Positions 31,247 through 51,438 of a stretch of DNA of 64,000 nt are shown here, piece after piece. The notes below the pieces were generated by a model that was not told the DNA's origin, searched no databases, and worked only from the letters and a program-made list of their open reading frames with translations. Position numbers and translations under genes: made by a program. Each line of letters opens with the position of its first letter. Within the stretch, counting starts at the first letter, position 1. The stretch lies in contig JAPFFF010000003.1 in assembly GCA_039105265.1 (NCBI GenBank), forward strand, positions 1,612,001 through 1,676,000. Reading direction: 5' to 3'. The stretch is from Tritrichomonas musculus. Taxonomy: Eukaryota > Parabasalia > Tritrichomonadida > Tritrichomonadidae.

Positions 31247-33015
31247 ATGGGTTTGATATGTGAATTAAATGAAAATTTTATCCGAATGAAACCAATGACA
31301 CTGAACACTATGTTATACGATCACGTATATGAAGGTATGAAATCCATATCTATAAATGATTTCCGTGATGACGATGATCCATTGAAACAACAAGTTGAAC
31401 CAATACCAACACCAGAAGAAGTCCATGATCCGTCATATATTCGATGGCAGATGTTTGATGAGATCCCTGATTGGTTATACACTATACAGTGTGAAGGTTA
31501 CTTCGATAAGAACGGCAAACCATTAGATGATGAAACAACGATTAGACATCTAACTAGTGGTGAACCACCAGTAAATATCGATGCTGCACTAGAAATTCAT
31601 GATGAGAATGGTAATGTAATCAATTATATAGATTATGAAGATTATTATTATTGTATGGATCACAACAAATATGATTTACGTAAGATCACTAAACAAATTC
31701 GAACCAAGACGTTCATCTGTGAAGCTTCAATCGGTTCTGGTAAATCGACAGCGATTCGTAAATGGATTGCATCACATAGTACAGAGAGGTTTATGGTAAT
31801 AGTTCCAACAGTGAATATCGCTGAAGAGTTCTATACCAAGTTGAGTGATATGGATGTTAATTCCATTCGGTTGTGTGTTAACGATAATGCGTTTAAAGAG
31901 TTTCACAAAGCTGTACACAATGAAGTTAATGTGATTATTACTACATACAACACAGCTTCCAAATGTTTAGGGGATTTAATCGAAGAATACTATACGAACG
32001 AACAACGATTAGATTATTTTCTAGTGATTGATGAAGCGCATATGTTACTACAACATATTGGATTGATTGAGATTACTAAAGAGTTCGATAAGGTTGCATT
32101 AATAAGTGCTGACGATATTAAACACTTCGCGTGTTTTAGAGATTACATAATCGAAATATATACGTTAACAAGTTGATACCAGATGCTGATGAACAACGAG
32201 CTGCAATAGTTGATTTGATTGATAAAAATAGAATGAACTACGATAAAGTATTAATTAAGATAGAAGATAAGAAAGAATGTAATCGATTGAAGAATCTATT
32301 AAAAGATAGATACAAGGTTGCTTTATATACAGGTGATAACAAAGAGGTTAAGTTGAATGAAGATGGTTTGTTCGACGAAGACGTTGATGTTATTATATCT
32401 ACCTCATCTATCCAGAATGGACAGTCCATTAAAGAGAATATTCTATCTATATTCGTCCAAACATATATCGATACTGTGTTCAGTGTTAAACAGTTTCTAG
32501 GTCGAAACCGAAATCGAAACTCGGATGTATATGTATATGTTCGATATGGAAAGCATTTGAACAAGAGAAAGTACTCGATACCGAACAACAGATATGAGAG
32601 ATACTTAAACGAACTGCGTGATAGAGCATGGAATTGTATGAGTAAAACAGGTTGGAATGTCGCATTATATGAGTTTGGTCGTGTACGATTCGGTAAATCT
32701 GTTGATGATGACGATTCACAAAGTGAAGTTCTCGAAGAGAATGAAAAACCAGTTGATGATGATGAATCTGTTGATGATGATGAATCTGTTGATGAACCAG
32801 TTAATGAACCTATCGTTAATGAACCTATCGTTGATGATACTGTTGTTGATGAATCTGTCGTTGACGAGCATGTCGTTGATGAACCTAACATTGATATAGA
32901 ATTTACTACCAAATATTTACAGTTTATTTGTGACCAATATCCAGATGACAGGACTGTTCACCTCTTTGCCGATATATATATACCTATACCTCTCATAGGA
33001 CCTAGCTGTTTATAA
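31247..33015 (+). pseudogene. superfamily 2 DExH helicase, broken by a frameshift
   Basis: The first frame, 31247-32176 (309 residues), has the Walker A motif GSGKSTAIRKW, a TYNTASK motif and the DEAH box (VIDEAHML). The second, in another frame from about 32140 to 33015, carries the C-terminal helicase half, with VIISTSSIQNGQ (motif V region) and QFLGRNRNRN (motif VI). Both frames are open only between about 32140 and 32176, so one single-base indel there splits one helicase. The second frame's apparent start is a TTG, so two overlapping genes are unlikely. The arrangement recalls origin-binding/replicative helicases of selfish or virus-like elements, by inference. After the helicase core comes an acidic Val/Asp/Glu/Pro repeat tail. 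The last ~18 codons run over the antisense end of a transposase, so the C-terminus is probably not native. Codon use is more balanced than in neighbouring genes. Confidence 0.6.
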
Positions 33016-34405
33016 ATATTAAAATCACCTTGGAAATGAGTTCCTAGAGTACCAAGATGGACTGCCTTTAGATTAATTAGTACTCTTGTTAACGACAAGG
33101 ATAAGTTCATGTACTTCTTCATCCAAATCAAGTCAAACAAAGTCATATGCTTGTTTTTCCCTCCATCGCGGTTTCTTCGTTGAAGCCCTGTTTCGAAATC
33201 GTAAGATAAATATTTGTTGTAATATATAGCAACGATTGAAAAACCTAAGGATAGTTGTTCCAATCGTTGTTCTCGAGTGAGATTGTTTTCCATAATGGAG
33301 TTAATTAGCAAAAAACAAGGCAAAAGTGCTATTAAGAGATCATATCTGCCCTTCGAAGAGCAAATATCGGACCCACAAACAAGGCGATACCTGTAGCATT
33401 TGACCAAATGCATTGGATCTTCGAAAATATGTATTCCTTTGTAATCTGTAAACGCCGAACTGAGTGGTTTATTTAAATCGATTTGGTCAATTTTATCAAA
33501 TCCTGTACACATGTTATAAACATAATCTAGATATTTGGGATCTCCGTCAAAAGAAATTACTATTACATTTAATCCAGCATCTTTGCGCCTGATTACAATT
33601 TCTTCTATTTCTTGCTTTATATCATCATTGGCTGATCCATTAGTTTTTTTCCTAATTAGAATAGGAAAAGATTTATTTTCTTCACTTAGAGAACATAAAA
33701 AGCAAAGAAATATTTCAATATTTCATTGTGATGTTCTTCACAGAAATTATGAAATTCGTCTAAATTCTCAGAAATTAGATCAGCAAGTTTCTTATCAATT
33801 GTAAGTTCTTCAAATAAGCCTTCAACTTGTCTATTTTGATTAATCGATATTTTTGCTTTGACAGACGCCGCATCAACAGCAACGACGCAGCGTTTGTCAT
33901 CACTTTTCCAAAACAAATAGATCATCTTACAAATTGACTCATATGAACCGTCCAAAATTTCGTCTGTAATGCCATATTTTAACTTATATTTATGCTTCAT
34001 TGTTCTGATTTGCTTTGAACTGGGAAAACCAACATTTCGATGTAATATATCTGTTTAATACTCACCTGTCATACTAAGCAAAATATATAATTGATATGAG
34101 TCTTGATCAAAACGATTGCGGTTTTTCCATTTGCTGTCATTTTCATTGTTTTTTGGCAAATTCAAACTTTTTGTATGGAAATATAAATTAGGATAGTATT
34201 CTAATAATTTGTAAATTCTTGAGTTTGCTTCTATGAAATCTTGGAGTTCTGAACATTTTTTTATATATTTGTTTTTGTAATCATTTACTCTATCATTCAA
34301 TCGAGCATTCTCTTTTTATCAATATTTAATTAAATCATCTTTTTCATTATCAGATCTAACTTTTCTAGCTTTTTTGGCTGTATTAGAAGTAAATCCTCTT
34401 GTACT
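32958..34405 (-). pseudogene. P-element/THAP9-like transposase, decayed
   Basis: Read on the minus strand from about 34405 to 32958, several open pieces in two frames form one protein. The first is a Lys-rich N-terminal segment with two adjacent stops (near 34317-34322). Next is a piece to 34055, then 34000-33686, and after a frame change near 33690-33740 a piece to 32958. Acid motifs appear in transposase order: VAVDAASVKA, ISFDGDPKYLD, and FEDPMHLVKCYRYRL, which resembles the D-P-x-H-L-x-K motif of P-element/THAP9 RNase-H-like transposases. With at least one frameshift and several stops it cannot encode an intact enzyme. The family call is from motif order only; another DDE/D family is possible. 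It meets the helicase remnant tail to tail. Confidence 0.5.
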
Positions 34406-35459: not shown

Positions 35460-36738
35460 ATGTCTTCATACCGTCAGTTTGATAAACTCGTTCCATCTGT
35501 TTGCAAAAATAACATTGAAGAATTATCTAAATTATGCGACGAAAAACAAAAGAATGTTTTAACAGGAGCGAACTTTTCTCTTCCGTATTTTTTAATTTTC
35601 TAACTCCAGACTTGAACAATATTCGTTATCAACAATTCATGGCATAGACCAAGGAGCAACAATTACTTTACCTACTTCTTCTTTGACTTTGATGCACATT
35701 GCCGCTTATTGCGATTCACTTGAAGCTTTTATTTTCCTTCAAAATAAAGGACTCCCAATCAATAAACAAAGCGCTAACTCATATTTACCTATACATTATG
35801 CCTGCCTCGCTGGTTCTTACGAAGTTGTTGAATATATTTTATCAGTTGATCCCTCCCAAGCAACAGTTCTTCCCCAAGTAGAATATCATCTTATTTATTT
35901 AGCTACAATGTCTGGCGATCCAGATGTTCTTCGATTATTATTCAAAAATGGAGCAGATATTAACGCAGCGCAAAATAAAAAGAACAAATCTGTTCAACAA
36001 GCTATTAAAACACGTCATGTTGAATGTCTCAGAATATTATTAGAAAAAGGATCTAAAAACGAAGTCGATAAAGAACAATATTCTACTTTAATGTTAGCAA
36101 TTGCAAATAATGAATTTGATGCAGTTCCTCTTTTGGCTGAATCAGGTGAAAACTTAGAATATGTTGTACCAGGCACGGGAGAAACCGCTTTATCTCTTGC
36201 TTGCTTCGTCGGCCATCGACTTACAGTCAAATATTTATGTGATCATATGACCAAAGTTGATATTGATCCCTCTTTTCGAACAAAGGCTGCTGTTCATTGG
36301 GTATGCCAATCAAAAGATCCAGAAATTGTTAAAATGGTTTTAGCTAAAAATATTAATGTTAATCGCCTTGACCAGGATGGGCATACTGGCTTATTTTACT
36401 TATTAGATCTTACTGATGAAGATAATACAATCAAAATCATTGAGCTTCTTTACAATGCTGGTCTTGATCTAAACATTCAAGGCAAATCAGTGACAGGGGC
36501 TGAAGTTAATTCAATTCTAGGTGATTTCGTATCATCAATTCATAGGCCAACAAAAGTTATCGGATATCTTCTTCAGAATGGAGCTAGAGCCGATGCCAAA
36601 CTAATTTCACAAAATAAGCGTATTATAGATTTTGTTCAAAATTCAAGAAACAGAAAATTATCAGAAGTATTTAAGAAATGGGTACCAGAATTGTTCAAAC
36701 AAACTGGACGTAGTGGGAGAACACAAATTAAAAAATAA
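35460..36738 (+). CDS. ankyrin-repeat protein, two exons with a 25-nt intron
   Basis: Exon 1 is 35460-35584 and exon 2 is 35610-36738. Joining them gives a 417-residue protein and restores the frame exactly across the phase-2 junction. Without splicing, exon 1 ends at a stop at the intron and exon 2 has no nearby ATG start. The protein contains about seven to eight ankyrin-type repeats from about residue 75 to 375. Examples are TLMHIAAYCDSLEAFIFL, LPIHYACLAGSYEVVEYIL, LRLLFKNGADIN, TALSLACFVGHRLTVKYL and VIGYLLQNGARAD. The tail is basic. Ankyrin proteins are very numerous in trichomonads and mediate protein-protein contacts; the partner here is unknown. The stop codon TAA overlaps a UAAA motif, the trichomonad poly(A) signal. 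Confidence 0.85.
35585..35609 (+). other. candidate 25-nt spliceosomal intron
   Basis: The interval begins GTATTT and ends CTAACTCCAG, the form of the fused branch-point/3' splice motif of trichomonad introns (ACTAACACACAG). Its removal joins two ankyrin-gene frames that are offset by one base. Confidence 0.75.
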
Positions 36739-37229: not shown

Positions 37230-37968
37230 TTAGCAATTGCATTTTTTCTTTTGCAAAGTTTGCATTTTAATATTCTGACTTCCTGACCTTCCTTTTGCAT
37301 ATTTTAAGGAGGAAATATCTATGGTTGAAATAACTTGACAAATTCCTTCTTTCAATTCATTAATCCCCTCTTGAGTCAAACAACTTGTTTCAAAGTATGA
37401 GGCACTTAATGACTCTGCAAGTTGCATTGCAGCATTTTTATCAACTTCTCTAACAGATATACCTGTGCTTTGAATATTTTCATTTTCGTTGTCGTTTTTA
37501 TCTTTTTCTATTACATTTTCCATTACTGGACTTTTTGCAGAAAACTCTGAGCCATAAACAAGGTCAATTTTATTTCCAACGATTATAAAAGATGGATCAG
37601 AATTCTTATGAACAAATTCGTACCATTCATTAATTTTATCAAATGATGATTTATTTGTTACATCATAAACGATTATTGCAATATCAGTATCTCTACAAAA
37701 CATAGGAACGACGGATCGATATTGGGGTGTTCCAGCAGTATCCCAAACATGAACAAGATAATTGGTATCATCAATTTTGAGTTGAATAGGCGTCATTCCA
37801 GCTCCTATCGTGGGTGCTGTTTCATCTGCGTGTTAGTAAATCTGTTCATAAAATAATAAAAATACATGAAAAGGCTTTATTTAGAAATCTATTAATAATA
37901 GATGTTTTCCCTACTGATGCCTCACCTATAAAAATAACTTTAACGATTTGTCCATTTGAAGCTTCCAT
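37230..37968 (-). CDS. Rab-family small GTPase, two exons with a 40-nt intron
   Basis: On the minus strand exon 1 is 37968-37866 and exon 2 is 37825-37230, giving 232 residues. Exon 1 supplies the P-loop GEASVGKTS (15-23). The junction makes FSYETAPTIGAG with the switch I Thr (T40). Exon 2 has WDTAGT (62-67), VGNKIDL and ETSCLT. The C-terminus CNC is a geranylgeranylation signal of Rab proteins, so it should act on membranes in vesicle traffic. Two features are odd. The switch II catalytic Gln is replaced by Thr (T67), which should reduce GTP hydrolysis. An Asn/Asp/Glu/Lys-rich insertion of about 35 residues also follows the NKID motif. The specific Rab subfamily cannot be assigned. Confidence 0.9.
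37826..37865 (-). other. candidate 40-nt spliceosomal intron in the Rab gene
   Basis: On the minus strand the interval begins GTATTT and ends ACTAACACGCAG, which differs at one position from the trichomonad motif ACTAACACACAG. Its removal joins the P-loop exon to the switch exons in frame; unspliced reading meets a TGA inside the interval. Confidence 0.9.
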
Positions 37969-45002: not shown

Positions 45003-47921
45003 TCAATTATTATTCAATGATTTCAATTTCTGTCCTACCAAATTGATAATCTCCTCGACGCTTTTTTGATCGAAATCAAATCTCATATCTCTAAAGAAAG
45101 GCTTAAACTGATTTCTAATCAAGTCGACCAATCTATTTTTGGAATTCTCCACTTTTTCAATTTGATTCTGATAATCATTCTTCATTGACAGCAGCTGAGT
45201 CGTGAACAACGACTCCTGCGATCTTTTATCACGGTTACTACTTGCTGTTAATTCACTAGATTTGAGTTCCATTTTCTGAATTTTGAGGTTCAGTTCAGTA
45301 ATCATTTTTTCCAAGTTTTCATTATGATCGATCAGATTCAATTTTTCATTATTAAGGCTAGTAATTGTATCTCTACAGTCCGCATTTTGTTTTTTCATTT
45401 GGTTCAACATTTCATCATATCTTTGCTGGGCCTGTTTTTTAATTTCTTTAGATTTTTCTTTATGTTTTTTATTAATTTCTTCAATTTGATTCAACAATTC
45501 TTTAATTTTCTCTTCAAGCAACTTTTTTGAGTCTGTTATGTCATTTATAACGTCGTGAAGATCATTGATTGTTATTCCAAGTTCTTCAACTTTATCTTGG
45601 CTTGAATTGTATTGAGCATTTAAATTTTCGTATTGAATTTTCAAATTTTGAATGGTTTCATTTGCTTTTTGAATTCTCTGTTGATTTTTCTGTTTCGTTT
45701 CATTAAATTTCTCTTCAAGTTGCTTCTTTGAGTCCTCCAACTTTTTCAATTCTTCTTCAGAATTTTTCAATGCTTCTTCACTTTTTGAGATCATATTTGT
45801 CAGTAGCTCATTTTTGCGATTTAATTCATCAATCAATGAATCCTTTGTTTGAATGGTCTGTTCGATACTTTTAATTTCATTCAAGCAATCATCTGTTATT
45901 TTTTTATTTGAACCTTTCAATTTTTGAATGACCTGTTTCAATTTTTTATTTTTTGAATACAACCGCTCAACTTTTTGAATACCGTCTTTTATTTGGTCGA
46001 CTTTCAAGGTCATCAAGAGATCCAGGATTTCTTCGTCCATTTTAGATTTGAGTTCAAAAAGATCGTTGAAACTGTCACTTTTCTTCTGAATGTAATCTTT
46101 GAATAGTTCTTTGGCCGTTGAACTGTTATCGTCAACGATTTCTTGTATCTTTTCTGAACTGAAGTCTGGAAACGTATTTTTCAGAAATTCCTTAACGGTC
46201 TCCAATAAACCATTCAAAGTGAGTGAATTTGTGTTAGTTGAAGAAATTTCATTTTCAAGCCGATCAGTTTTTGTTTGGAACCATTTGCAGATGACCGTTA
46301 AGACGTGTCTCAATTTTGTGGGTAATTCAAGCGTATCGTTCTTGACAATGTCTTCTATAATTATCGTCAAATCTTTGGGTATCTCTGGAACTGACCAACA
46401 CGCTAATGGAATTAGTTTTGTAATGTTAATTGGTCGATTGGCAATTTCAAGTTTCGAACGAGTGGTTTCAAGCTCTGCCGTTGTTTTCGCATATTTTTGC
46501 GAATATTCATGCAATTGGCTCTCTAAACTTGTGCTCATTTCTTTGTTTTGCTTGATTATTTTGGACAGATTTTCATTTTCATTTTTAATCGTTTCCTTTT
46601 CCATTTGTTCTTGCTTATAATCTCGATTTAGCTCGAGCAATTTATTTCTGATCGTTTCATTCTCAAATTTTAATTTCGTATTTTCTGTTTCTTTTTGTGC
46701 AATTTTTTCCATCAATTCATTTGATCTCTTTTCAAACTGTTCATTTAGACTTATATTTTTGTTATTTTCGTCTGTGTAAATTTCTTTCAAATGTGCCATT
46801 TTTTCAGTTAATGCAGTGATCTTTGTTTTCAATGATCTGTTTTTGGCTACAAGATTTGGAATTGTGCTGTTTTTGTATTCCTGATTGACATCTTTCAATG
46901 CAGTCAACTTTTCATTAAGATCTGATATATGATTTGAAAGTTGGATGACTTTTTCTGAATCCGTTTCTGCTGTTTGAATTTTTGAAAGCTGAAGTTGTGA
47001 CTCAAGCTTGGCATTATCTTTATTTAAAGACTCGTTTTTAAGTGAAAGTTCATTATTTAATTTTTTCTGTTGTTCAAGTTGTTCAGAGATTTTTTTAACT
47101 TGAGAAGTAACTTCAATCATCTTTAATTCATTTTGATTTTCTATTGATCGGATTTTATCATTTGCATTATTTTGAATTTCTTGCTCTTTCTTGATTTCTC
47201 CTTGAAGAATCATTTTCAGTTGCTTTATCTTTCGTTTTAATTTAAATACTTCTTCACTTTTACCGCTTTTCTTTTTTGGGCTTGGCTGATTATTATTAAT
47301 TTTAGATATCATATTTATTTCTTCATATTCCTTGGTAGGCTTTATATCGCTAACTGAAGTCATGGTTGTGGTCAAGATATTGGGTTTGATAATATCAATT
47401 TTTTCAAAATGAGAAATTAAATCTCCAATATTCTGGATGTCATCATTAAAATATAATGATGCTTGCTCCAAAATTTGTGACAAACATGCTTCGAATTTTT
47501 CTTTTTCTGCTTGGAGCTGCTCATTTTTCAAAGTTGTTAAAACTAACTTTTCATTTAAATCAGAAATCTGTTTTTTGAAAATATTCTCATTTGCGTCTAC
47601 TTTACTTCCAAATTCTTTGCTTATATTAGTTTGCGAGTTTACGCGCTGAGTCAATTCTTGAATTTGAAGATAATTAATTTGCAACCTTTTTTGCAAATCT
47701 TCTTTTTCACCTGCTGAACGAGTTAATTCTGATCTTAATTTTTCGTTTTCTTTGTAAACATCTTGAATTTTGTTTGTTATTTGTAAAGATTGATCTATTT
47801 GCTTTCTTAAAGAATCATTTTGAGACGAAAGTTCTGCATTTATTGAACGGAGTTTGGTATTTTCAAGCTTTAGAGATTCATCTTGATTTGCTACTATAGC
47901 TGTAGTAGCAGATGAATTCAT
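45003..47921 (-). CDS. long coiled-coil protein
   Basis: From the ATG at 47921 (a longer frame begins at a TTG) this is a 972-residue protein. It is mostly predicted coiled coil, with a short non-coil region near residues 490-560 (includes LIPLACWSVPEIPKDL). The last ~60 residues (FKPFFRDMRFDFDQKSVEE) are not heptad-like and might be a small globular end. No motor, GRIP or other named domain can be seen with confidence. A scaffold, tether or cytoskeletal role is inferred only from composition and length. Confidence 0.85.
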   Translation of the reverse strand: MNSSATTAIVANQDESLKLENTKLRSINAELSSQNDSLRKQIDQSLQITNKIQDVYKENEKLRSELTRSAGEKEDLQKRLQINYLQIQELTQRVNSQTNISKEFGSKVDANENIFKKQISDLNEKLVLTTLKNEQLQAEKEKFEACLSQILEQASLYFNDDIQNIGDLISHFEKIDIIKPNILTTTMTSVSDIKPTKEYEEINMISKINNNQPSPKKKSGKSEEVFKLKRKIKQLKMILQGEIKKEQEIQNNANDKIRSIENQNELKMIEVTSQVKKISEQLEQQKKLNNELSLKNESLNKDNAKLESQLQLSKIQTAETDSEKVIQLSNHISDLNEKLTALKDVNQEYKNSTIPNLVAKNRSLKTKITALTEKMAHLKEIYTDENNKNISLNEQFEKRSNELMEKIAQKETENTKLKFENETIRNKLLELNRDYKQEQMEKETIKNENENLSKIIKQNKEMSTSLESQLHEYSQKYAKTTAELETTRSKLEIANRPINITKLIPLACWSVPEIPKDLTIIIEDIVKNDTLELPTKLRHVLTVICKWFQTKTDRLENEISSTNTNSLTLNGLLETVKEFLKNTFPDFSSEKIQEIVDDNSSTAKELFKDYIQKKSDSFNDLFELKSKMDEEILDLLMTLKVDQIKDGIQKVERLYSKNKKLKQVIQKLKGSNKKITDDCLNEIKSIEQTIQTKDSLIDELNRKNELLTNMISKSEEALKNSEEELKKLEDSKKQLEEKFNETKQKNQQRIQKANETIQNLKIQYENLNAQYNSSQDKVEELGITINDLHDVINDITDSKKLLEEKIKELLNQIEEINKKHKEKSKEIKKQAQQRYDEMLNQMKKQNADCRDTITSLNNEKLNLIDHNENLEKMITELNLKIQKMELKSSELTASSNRDKRSQESLFTTQLLSMKNDYQNQIEKVENSKNRLVDLIRNQFKPFFRDMRFDFDQKSVEEIINLVGQKLKSLNNN

Positions 47922-48135
47922 TTCAGCTTTAACGTACAAATTATATGGATTTTTTTTTGAATGTTTTCTTTCAATTTTTATTTTATATAGAATTTATCGA
48001 TTTTCATTTTTAAAAATGAAGTTCAAACAAGAATCTATCATAAAAAATTCATTTATACAACAAATGAAAATAAAATACATTCAAAGGTATAAAGAAACTC
48101 CTTCTTTGATTTTCTTGCTGCCTTTGCCTGGGCCG

Positions 48136-51100
48136 TTATGCAGCTTCTGGCTGTGGCGCTGCTTCTGAATGCTGCTCTTGTTCAGGTTGTGGCTCTGATT
48201 GTTGAGCAGCTTCAGGCTGAGCTTCTAACTGTGGTGCAGCTTCTGATTGTGATTCAGGTTGTGGCTCTGATGGTGGCGCTGCTTCTGAATGCTGCTCTTG
48301 TTCTGATTGTTGAGCAGCTTCAGGCTGTGATTCTGATTGCAATGCTGCTTCTGGTTGAGATTCTGGTTGTTGAGCAGCTTCAGGCTCTTGTTCTGACTGT
48401 GGCGCTGCTTCTGATTGTGATTCAGGTTGTGGCTCGGACGGTGGCGCTGCTTCTGAATGCTGTTCTTGTTCTGATTGTTGAGCAGCTTCAGGCTGTGGCT
48501 CAGATTGCTGAGCAACTTCTGAATGCTGTTCTTGTTCTGGTTGTTGAGCAGCTTCAGGCTGTGATTCTGATTGCAATGCTGCTTCTGGTTGTTGAGCAGC
48601 TTCAGGCTCTTGCTCTGACTGTGGCGCTGCTTCTGAATGCTGTTCTTGTTCTGACTGCAGAGCTTCAGGCTGTGGCTCAGATTGCTGAGCAACTTCTGAA
48701 TGCTGTTCTTGTTCTGGTTGTTGAGCAGCTTCAGGCTGTGATTCTGATTGCAATGCTGCTTCTGGTTGAGATTCTGGTTGTTGAGCAGCTTCAGGCTCTT
48801 GTTCTGACTGTGGTGCAGCTTCTGATTGTGATTCAGGTTGTGGCTCGGACGGTGGTGCTGCTTCTGAATGCTGTTCTTGTTCTGGTTGTTGAGCAGCTTC
48901 AGGCTGTGATTCTGATTGCAATGCTGCTTCTGGTTGTTGAGCAGTTTCAGGCTCTTGCTCTGACTGTGGTGCTGCTTCTGAATGCTGTTCTTGTTCTGAC
49001 TGCAGAGCTTCAGGCTGTGGCTCAGATTGCTGAGCAACTTCTGAATGCTGTTCTTGTTCTGGTTGTTGAGCAGCTTCAGGCTGTGATTCTGATTGCTGAG
49101 CAACTTCTGAATGCTGCTCTTGTTCTGGTTGTTGAGCAGCATCTGGCTGTGATTCAGGCTGTGGCTCTGATTGCAATGCTGTTTCAGGTTGAGATTCTGA
49201 TTGTTGCTGTGGCTCTGACTGTGGTGCTGCTTCTGAATGCTGTTCTTGCTCTGACTGCAGAGCTTCAGGCTGTGATTCTGATTGCTGTTCGTGTTCTGAT
49301 TGTTGTTGAGCAACTGAGTTGTGATCTTGATCTGATTGTAGATCTTTTTCTGAATGTTGCAGAATCTCTTGCTCTGATTGCTGCCCTTCTTCTTGTTCTG
49401 GCAGAAGTTCTATTCCTCTCTGTTGAATTTGCAGGGGCTCTTGTTCTGACTGCTGAGCAATTTCTGAATGTAATTCTTGCTCTGATTGCTGAACTTCGGG
49501 CTGTGGTTCTTGTTCTGATTGCTGTGCTGCTTCTGAATGTAATTCTTGCTCTGATTGCAGAGCTTCAGGCTGCGGTTCTTGTTCTGATTGTTGGGTTACT
49601 TCTGAATGTAATTCTTGCTCTGATTGCAGAGCTTCAGGCTGTGATTCTGATTGCTGTTCGTGTTCTGATTGTTGTTGAGCAACTGAGTTGTGATCTTGAT
49701 CTGATTGTAGATCTTTTTCTGAATGTTGTAGAATCTCTTGCTCTGATTGCTGCCCTTCTTCTTGTTCTGGCAGAAGTTCTATTCCTCTCTGTTGAATTTG
49801 CAGGGGCTCTTGTTCTGATTGTTGAGCAATTTCTGAATGTAATTCTTGTTCTGATTGCTGAACTTCGGGCTGTGGTTCTTGTTCTGATTGTTGGGTTACT
49901 TCTGAATGTAATTCTTGCTCTGATTGCTGTGCTGCTTCTGAATGTAATTCTTGCTCTGATTGCTGAACTTCGGGCTGTGGTTCTTGTTCTGATTGTTGGG
50001 TTACTTCTGAATGTAATTCTTGCTCTGATTGCTGAACTTCAGGCTGTGGTTCTTGTTCTGATTGTTGGGTTACTTCTGAATGTAATTCTTGCTCTGATTG
50101 CTGTGCTGCTTCTGAATGTAATTCTTGCTCTGATTGCTGAACTTCAGGCTGTGATTCTGATTGCTGTTCGTGTTCTGATTGTTGTTGAGCAACTGAGTTG
50201 TGATCTTGATCTGATTGTAGATCTTTTTCTGAATGTTGTAGAATCTCTTGCTCTGATTGCTGCCCTTCTTCTTGTTCTGGCAGAAGTTCTATTTCTCTCT
50301 GTTGAATTTGCAGAGGTTCTTGTTCCGATTGCTGAGCAACTTCTGAATGCTGTTCTTGCTCTGATTGCAGAGCTTCAGGCTGTGATTCTGATTGCTGTTC
50401 GTGTTCTGATTGTTGTTGAGCAACTGAGTTGTGATCTTGATCTGATTGTAGATCTTTTTCTGAATGTTGTAGAATCTCTTGCTCTGATTGCTGCCCTTCT
50501 TCTTGTTCTGGCAGAAGTTCTATTCCTCTCTGTTGAATTTGCAGGGGCTCTTGTTCTGATTCCTGTTGTCCATGCTCTGATTGAAGCGAAACAGCATGCT
50601 CAGATGCTGGCTCAATTCCGGAATGATCACGCTCTGACTGGAACTGAGCTTCTTGCTGCCATTGTTCCGATTGAATTGAGTGCTCTTGTTGGTCGTGCTC
50701 TGATGTTTGTTCATGTGCTGGTTGTCCATTCTCAGATTTTTGAGAAATTTCTTGTTGGTATTGGTCGGAATGAAATTGAGCTTCGTGTAAATCATGTTCT
50801 GCTTGCTGCGATGGCTCTTGTTCTGCTTGCGGCTTAATATCTTGATTGTGTTCTATTTCATTTTCTTGATGTGATTCAATCTCAGATGGCTGTGTTTGAT
50901 TGATATTGCTTTCATTTTGGTTTTCAAATGAGCTCTCACTATGATAAAACTCTTTTATTGGAATAGTTCCTGTCTTTTGAAATGCCTTTTCTAGATCTGG
51001 GAGTTCAACTTCATCAATCGTTTGAATTTCAACGTCAACAAGCTTTGGCTTCCCTGGCCTTTTTTTCTTAACTATTTTTTTTGGAGATTGTAATCTACTA

Positions 51101-51309
51101 TTTGTTACAATTTCTTCATCTGTATCATTAACAACTCTTCTCCTCTTAACTCTTTTTTTGGGAGTAGGGGTTCTATTAGTTGTTACAATATCTTCATTTT
51201 CTATTTTTTTTTTTCTTGGACTAACAAACTTCTTTTTTATAATAGATTCATTTCCGCTTATATCGATGATAGATTCCGTATCTATGCTGTATTCGCCATT
51301 TTCACTCAT
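48136..51309 (-). CDS. low-complexity Glu/Gln/Ser/Pro/Ala repeat protein with basic N-terminus
   Basis: The 1,057-residue protein has two parts. Residues 1-110 are Lys/Arg- and Ser/Thr-rich, with several nuclear-localisation-like clusters (KKRVKRRR, KKKRPGKPK). The rest is repeats of short units such as QSEQE, QPEAA and EQHSEAAP. Four copies of a block of about 63 residues contain the less degenerate stretch ELLPEQEEGQQSEQ. I recognise no domain. The repeat gives open frames in at least one other minus frame and on the opposite strand over about 2.7 kb, which are shadows. Nuclear location is inferred from the basic N-terminus. Repeat number is expected to vary between isolates. Confidence 0.8.
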   Translation of the reverse strand: MSENGEYSIDTESIIDISGNESIIKKKFVSPRKKKIENEDIVTTNRTPTPKKRVKRRRVVNDTDEEIVTNSRLQSPKKIVKKKRPGKPKLVDVEIQTIDEVELPDLEKAFQKTGTIPIKEFYHSESSFENQNESNINQTQPSEIESHQENEIEHNQDIKPQAEQEPSQQAEHDLHEAQFHSDQYQQEISQKSENGQPAHEQTSEHDQQEHSIQSEQWQQEAQFQSERDHSGIEPASEHAVSLQSEHGQQESEQEPLQIQQRGIELLPEQEEGQQSEQEILQHSEKDLQSDQDHNSVAQQQSEHEQQSESQPEALQSEQEQHSEVAQQSEQEPLQIQQREIELLPEQEEGQQSEQEILQHSEKDLQSDQDHNSVAQQQSEHEQQSESQPEVQQSEQELHSEAAQQSEQELHSEVTQQSEQEPQPEVQQSEQELHSEVTQQSEQEPQPEVQQSEQELHSEAAQQSEQELHSEVTQQSEQEPQPEVQQSEQELHSEIAQQSEQEPLQIQQRGIELLPEQEEGQQSEQEILQHSEKDLQSDQDHNSVAQQQSEHEQQSESQPEALQSEQELHSEVTQQSEQEPQPEALQSEQELHSEAAQQSEQEPQPEVQQSEQELHSEIAQQSEQEPLQIQQRGIELLPEQEEGQQSEQEILQHSEKDLQSDQDHNSVAQQQSEHEQQSESQPEALQSEQEQHSEAAPQSEPQQQSESQPETALQSEPQPESQPDAAQQPEQEQHSEVAQQSESQPEAAQQPEQEQHSEVAQQSEPQPEALQSEQEQHSEAAPQSEQEPETAQQPEAALQSESQPEAAQQPEQEQHSEAAPPSEPQPESQSEAAPQSEQEPEAAQQPESQPEAALQSESQPEAAQQPEQEQHSEVAQQSEPQPEALQSEQEQHSEAAPQSEQEPEAAQQPEAALQSESQPEAAQQPEQEQHSEVAQQSEPQPEAAQQSEQEQHSEAAPPSEPQPESQSEAAPQSEQEPEAAQQPESQPEAALQSESQPEAAQQSEQEQHSEAAPPSEPQPESQSEAAPQLEAQPEAAQQSEPQPEQEQHSEAAPQPEAA
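49261..50560 (-). repeat. four ~190-bp blocks within the repeat protein gene
   Basis: Copies begin near 49261, 49630, 50140 and 50371, each about 190 bp, and share a core that codes ELLPEQEEGQQSEQ. They differ at a few positions (for instance the third has REIELL where others have RGIELL). They are separated by shorter QSEQE-type units. Confidence 0.75.
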
Positions 51310-51438
51310 CAGAATTAAAATAGAATCAAGATTGTTTTTAGTTCTTAACGTCTTTTTTACATTATCTGAAAATTTTCAATGAAATAATAATATAACCATT
51401 TTGTTGTTAATATCGTGATTACATTATAACAAAAGAAA

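Follow-up and report, generated by a model that had tools for sequence, protein, structure and literature searches.

The 64,000-nucleotide stretch of DNA that we analyzed (the window; contig C3, 1612001–1676000) comes from Tritrichomonas musculus, a commensal of the mouse gut, and contains an ankyrin-repeat gene on the forward strand and a Rab-type GTPase gene on the reverse strand. Both genes appear to be split by a short intron. The features are as follows.

35460..35584, + strand: first exon of the ankyrin-repeat gene, MSSYRQFDKL...TGANFSL in 41 codons, followed by 2 nt of a proline codon that the interval splits; matched by an N-terminal profile
35585..35609, + strand: candidate 25-nt intron, phase 2, GTATTTTTTAATTTTCTAACTCCAG; indicated by the frames, the motif and a counterpart in the C56 paralogue
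35585..35590, + strand: putative 5' splice site GTATTT, as read from the sequence; GTATT is common to the C56 paralogue
35599..35609, + strand: putative branch site fused to the 3' splice site, TCTAACTCCAG; TCTAACTTCAG in the C56 paralogue
35610..36738, + strand: exon 2 of the ankyrin-repeat gene, 1 nt plus 375 ankyrin-repeat codons and the stop
37230..37825, - strand: exon 2 of the Rab gene; Rab5/Ypt51 match
37826..37865, - strand: second candidate intron, within the Rab-type GTPase gene; GTATTTTTATTATTTTATGAACAGATTTACTAACACGCAG, 40 nt, phase 1
37866..37968, - strand: first exon of the Rab gene (MEASNGQIVKVIFIGEASVGKTSIINRFLNKAFS plus 1 nt); Rab7 N-terminus match

Read without splicing, the frame that starts at ATG 35460 runs to a TAA codon (35601–35603) within CTAAC and, as originally predicted, stops inside the 25-base interval. 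Beyond TAA 35593–35595, which closes it on the upstream side, the downstream frame stays open from 35596 until the stop codon that ends at 36738. Its first ATG comes only at 35692, in agreement with the predicted lack of a nearby start codon. The interval is exactly 25 nt long and begins with GTATTT, and its removal fuses 41 codons, one split codon and 375 codons into the single frame of 417 residues that had been proposed. The junction falls at coding nucleotide 125 of 1254, in phase 2. The interval has a G+C content of 24%, compared to 34% in the exons, and its interior is T-rich, with T-runs. The product of exon 2 matches the Pfam family Ank_2 (E 1.2e-37) and other ankyrin families; a Pfam scan of the exon 1 piece gave no match. 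An alternative intron at 35477–35609 (133 nt) was rejected because it would remove a conserved N-terminal block.

Homology extends to both sides of the join. Exon 2 used alone as the query, with nothing spliced, matched 116 proteins at E <= 0.001; metagenomic relatives are among them, as are two Histomonas meleagridis proteins of 408 and 414 aa. We aligned 13 homologues that have sequence before the repeats and built a profile from the columns preceding the join only. Among the 1688 stop-to-stop pieces of the window (at least 20 aa), this N-terminal profile matched the 41-residue upstream frame with E = 8e-10 (runner-up, 0.71), and the alignment terminates at the proline codon that spans the join. 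The spacing from the FSLP motif to LPTSSLTLMHIAA is 19 residues once the 25 nt are excised and 27 residues with a one-base slip; the linker of 12 aligned homologues (P0004 excluded) spans 5–20 residues when counted by eye. No homologue was confirmed in virus contigs or prokaryote genomes.

The excluded homologue, P0004 (63% identity), has a linker of 23 residues, nine of which (YFLFFSKSR) directly follow the proline (FAIP-YFLFFSKSR-DHYM). Read back into codons, these nine residues fit GTAYTT...TCTAARTCNAG. Judging from the protein, P0004 probably contains an in-frame, 27-nt version of the ankyrin intron that a gene caller translated. Two more proteins carry residues near the homologous position, SNSR in P0005 and FFFFSNLR (SNLR) in P0026, that resemble the translated end of a TCTAAC..CAG intron. 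At a guess, they may have the same cause as the P0004 insert.

We also examined the insert site in paralogues. A search of the genome (193,395,805 bases in 746 contigs) with exon 2 as the query returned 107 matches, counted as pieces; the top identities besides the gene itself were 53–59%, all of them fragments. The site was read at two paralogous loci, L105 on contig C56 and L106 on contig C10. The C56 paralogue has a 47-nt insert (C56:461093–461139) at the same nucleotide and in the same phase as the 25-nt interval. Its layout is ...AACTTTTCACTTCC, then 47 nt (GTATT at the start, TCTAACTTCAG at the end), then ATCTGATCATTATTTGTTTTCAACAATTGG, and that of the ankyrin gene is ...AACTTTTCTCTTCC, 25 nt, ACTTGAACAATATTCGTTATCAACAATTCA. 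The exon sequences on either side can be aligned gap-free, with identities of 62/90 and 45/75, and both inserts share the ends GTATT...TCTAACTYCAG around a T-rich interior. Two inserts that differ in length yet share their ends and their exact position rule out a sequencing error as their cause, and we consider the C56 insert the strongest evidence for a predicted intron at this site. The C56 copy is probably a pseudogene, given a stop in its exon 1 and, farther along, an interrupted match and a shift to another frame. Its pseudogene appearance also means that the C56 intron may no longer be spliced. The more distant L106 paralogue (39% identity) is a single frame without an insert at the site.

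The short motif occurs three times in the window, not above chance when compared to 200 shuffles (mean 2.5; 90 shuffles reached 3). A loose pattern showed no enrichment in the genome (682 + 799 sites versus 4206 + 3592 for a reversed control of different composition). From these 1481 sites we sampled 71 loci among the first listed (8 given by the tool, 9 chosen by look and 54 in list order), most of them with no break in the frame; an automatic rule flagged two, the good L011 and the weak L066, but passed over one Rab1-like locus (L009/L018). Seven of the 71 loci lie inside uninterrupted ORFs. We rejected motif counting as proof of an intron. The case for the intron rests on homology on both sides of the join and on the insert in the paralogue rather than on motif counts.

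The placement of the motif, in contrast, exceeds what chance would give. Within 264 kb, 2 of the 194 CTAAC occurrences have a GT donor no more than 60 nt upstream and break a frame, whereas none of the 13,101 occurrences of 29 permuted versions does so. When the donor may lie as far as 120 nt away, the figures become 2 versus 1. The flanks in this test were an ATG frame of at least 25 codons and a downstream frame of at least 150 codons, thresholds set after both hits had been seen. Looser limits gave 3 for CTAAC and 56 summed over the 29 permutations. A tight motif (GTATTTN{3,14}TCTAACN{2,4}CAG) has 20 sites in the genome, compared to 7 for its reversed control.

Flanks were read at 12 of the 20 tight-motif sites and at none of the control-motif sites. 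The 12 comprise the window site, L018 and ten more; nine of these ten were picked because their interior is T-rich, and the tenth (L104) is not of that sort. At 11 of them, window site included, removing 23–30 nt joins two open frames that are broken when unspliced; gene structure was absent at L104. Among the split frames, L103 has only two codons between ATG and intron, and the short stretches read at L097 and L100 contain no ATG. The distance from the presumed branch adenosine to the exon is 6 nt at 6 of the 11 sites and 7 nt at the other 5, the pattern permitting 6–8. We assessed the homology of these pieces visually; Pfam scans covered only L018 and L019, a kinase gene from the loose pattern. 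For example, the Rab1-like gene L018 (contig C1) has a 23-nt insert (DLLF/K/VLLIGDSG), and a second Rab gene, L100 (contig C12), has a 24-nt insert (DYLL/K/IVLIGDSG) at the same site and in the same phase, just before the P-loop. Arf-like and EF-hand-like genes, recognized by eye, are also among the split frames. The kinase gene L019 is split by a candidate 34-nt phase 0 intron (G000:C1:6025593-6025626, LQY/LKE). Wang et al. (2018, PMC6260720) list, for a CMGC kinase of Trichomonas vaginalis, a phase 0 intron of 93 nt between LAY and IKA, possibly at the same site and of another length. A snRNA search that took in U2 and U6 found six U2 matches well above the Rfam cut-off and two U6 candidates just below it (42.5 and 42.0 versus 44 bits).

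An intronless, continuous gene disrupted by a one-base sequencing or assembly error, or by a recent frameshift mutation, could also account for a broken frame. The region is T-rich, a single slip could in principle join the frames, and the distant paralogue L106 is without an insert. However, stops in both frames confine such a slip to 35596–35600, outside the long T-run. The homopolymer frameshift in a T-run that the original prediction had named as the alternative is likewise excluded for the 6-T run, since TAA 35593–35595 closes the downstream frame. Furthermore, a slip would leave eight extra residues in a linker that is never longer than 20 in the 12 homologues, and would leave unexplained both the 47-nt paralogue insert and the other split frames. 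We regard an error or frameshift as very unlikely.

Counting against the intron is the database prediction P0001 (348 aa), which starts at the internal ATG 35692, as do P0002, P0009, P0020 and P0025 at the corresponding methionine. Were this the true start, exon 1 would be a decayed or unrelated ORF and nothing would be spliced. Yet longer relatives, Histomonas P0010 and P0012 included, have N-termini homologous to exon 1, in the right order and with the right spacing, and gene callers that have no intron model would be expected to truncate the protein at 35692 anyway. An internal start appears exceedingly improbable. The interval could also be a formerly functional intron that is now retained or partly spliced, with translation starting downstream. 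Its branch-to-exon distance of 6 nt, versus the usual 7 nt reported for T. vaginalis (PMC6260720), would fit such a change, but the same distance occurs at 5 of the 10 other intron-like tight-motif sites (6–8 being permitted), and the six shortest T. vaginalis introns have a one-base deletion at position -4 according to Callejas-Hernandez et al. (2025, PMC12316389). A retained or partly spliced intron is very unlikely. We observed here the sequence and frames of the interval, homology on both sides, the insert of a paralogue, sister inserts elsewhere and matches to U2, and we consider it highly probable that the 25 nt at 35585–35609 form a spliceosomal intron, U2-type and belonging to the 'type B' of trichomonads, close to the start of the T. 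musculus ankyrin-repeat gene. Besides the intron itself, its boundaries and its phase, the fused branch point and 3' splice site of the original prediction are supported by the homologues, the C56 paralogue and the other 23–30 nt inserts in the genome.

Type B introns were described in T. vaginalis as 25–26 nt long with TCTAAC fused to the 3' site, from RT-PCR and sequencing (Wang et al., 2018, PMC6260720). Of the 11 T. vaginalis introns newly reported there, both types taken together, 9 fall within the first quarter of their ORF, and 9 have phase 1 or 2. Callejas-Hernandez et al. (2025, PMC12316389) list 24 type B introns in T. vaginalis (23–25 nt) and 52 in T. stableri (23–28 nt), as well as three T. 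vaginalis ankyrin genes with introns of types A and B; by their account, four of Wang's eight type B introns were not found in a newer T. vaginalis assembly. The ankyrin intron resembles these introns in its GT...AG ends (GTATTT...CAG), its length within 23–28 nt, the fused TCTAAC and the T-rich (poly-T), low-G+C interior, and also in its early location (first quarter of the ORF) and its phase 2, which is common in type B. It differs in coming from another genus and in being predicted from sequence. Also, its branch-to-exon distance of 6 nt apparently occurs in T. vaginalis only in the six shortest of the 24. Compared by eye, the ankyrin intron fails the exact T. vaginalis pattern GTWYWDN{7}TCTAACH{1,2}AACAG (PMC6260720), having 8 rather than 7 nt between the two parts and TCCAG after TCTAAC. 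We do not take this pattern as defining type B, given the wider lengths and variation reported in PMC12316389.

The original prediction had also placed 25 nt near the minimum for spliceosomal introns, a claim that does not hold. Shorter introns are reported from Stentor (15 nt) and Bigelowiella (18 nt), both cited in PMC12316389, and from mikrocytids (16–17 nt; PMC10245619), and introns of 23–25 nt have already been reported with PCR support in Trichomonas. These introns and those of about 25 bp in Paramecium and Nyctotherus (PMC5014332) are also very short and spliceosomal, but belong to other lineages, some with shorter minima. The predicted T. musculus intron is thus an addition to a known class and longer than the 15–18 nt records. 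Introns have been reported in 2,500 T. musculus genes (PMC11978803), and automatic prediction in a T. foetus assembly gave a mean intron of 175 bp (range 5–898; PMC11415386). We found no description of the type B class in Tritrichomonas in the literature searched, which covers subscription journals to a limited extent. TvRab1a of T. vaginalis has a 25-nt intron (Deng et al., 2009, via PMC12589397, PMC6260720 and PMC12316389), of the same size class as the ankyrin intron and in a different gene. The 23-nt insert of the Rab1-like L018 is likewise of this kind.

Splicing of the ankyrin transcript would follow the usual steps, with the ordinary U2 spliceosome as the most likely agent. Base pairing would link U1 to GTATTT, and U2 to CTAAC. 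The branch adenosine is presumed to be A35603, the second A of CTAAC and 6 nt 5' of exon 2, by analogy with the introns in PMC6260720. This nucleotide lies 18 nt downstream of the 5' splice site, which it would attack, and the AG ending 6 nt beyond it (CAG to 35609) would serve as the 3' splice site. Excision would join CC^A as one proline codon and yield the 417-residue protein; translation of an RNA that retained the intron would stop at the TAA of the branch site.

The second candidate intron of the window splits the Rab-type gene. Its exon 1 matches Rab7 N-termini (E 2e-4) and its exon 2 matches Rab5/Ypt51 from switch I onward (E 3e-18). Two relatives, P0234 and P0239, have FSFETAPTIGAGM where the 40-nt intron interrupts the gene. 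The intron ends in ACTAACACGCAG, close to the type A motif of T. vaginalis (RCTAACACAYAG) except for G in place of Y at one position, and at 40 nt it is below the 50–196 nt reported for type A (PMC12316389). It is the sole match to GTATNTN{3,30}ACTAACACRCAG that we found in the genome. Seven Rab relatives (P0226–P0232), among them the 150-aa P0232 of Tritrichomonas foetus, start at a methionine about ten residues past the intron site and lack the P-loop. Their first exons are probably missing from the gene models.

The putative ankyrin intron suggests, by sequence evidence, that the class of minimal introns with a fused motif extends from Trichomonas to Tritrichomonas. We lean slightly toward the view that the minimal type B class predates the split of the two genera and that its introns change length in place by slippage in T-runs. 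The slippage reading draws on the lengths at one ankyrin site: 25 nt here, 47 nt in the paralogue and probably 27 nt, in frame and free of stops, in a relative. If this reading is true, the first exon would be missing from many Tritrichomonas gene models. Gene prediction easily loses first exons that precede such introns, as probably in the ankyrin protein P0001 and the Rab proteins P0226–P0232. A pair of paralogues with 25 or 47 nt at one site also provides a handle on how such introns shrink or grow.

Other observations concern the surroundings of the two genes. P0003, an ankyrin relative (80% identity), and P0227, a Rab relative (78%), are both listed with a longest contig of 3427 bases. 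From this common figure, the two genes may adjoin in a related species too. At the gathering threshold, the only Rfam match in the window was a tRNA-Arg. Adjacent open frames on the reverse strand (32958–34315; no Pfam match in the part scanned, 32958–33722) are possibly a decayed gene. In part of the region 45003–51375, each strand carries long open frames; at 48–50 kb the AT skew is strong (to -0.44) and the G+C raised (0.45), and the region is probably a repetitive, low-complexity gene.
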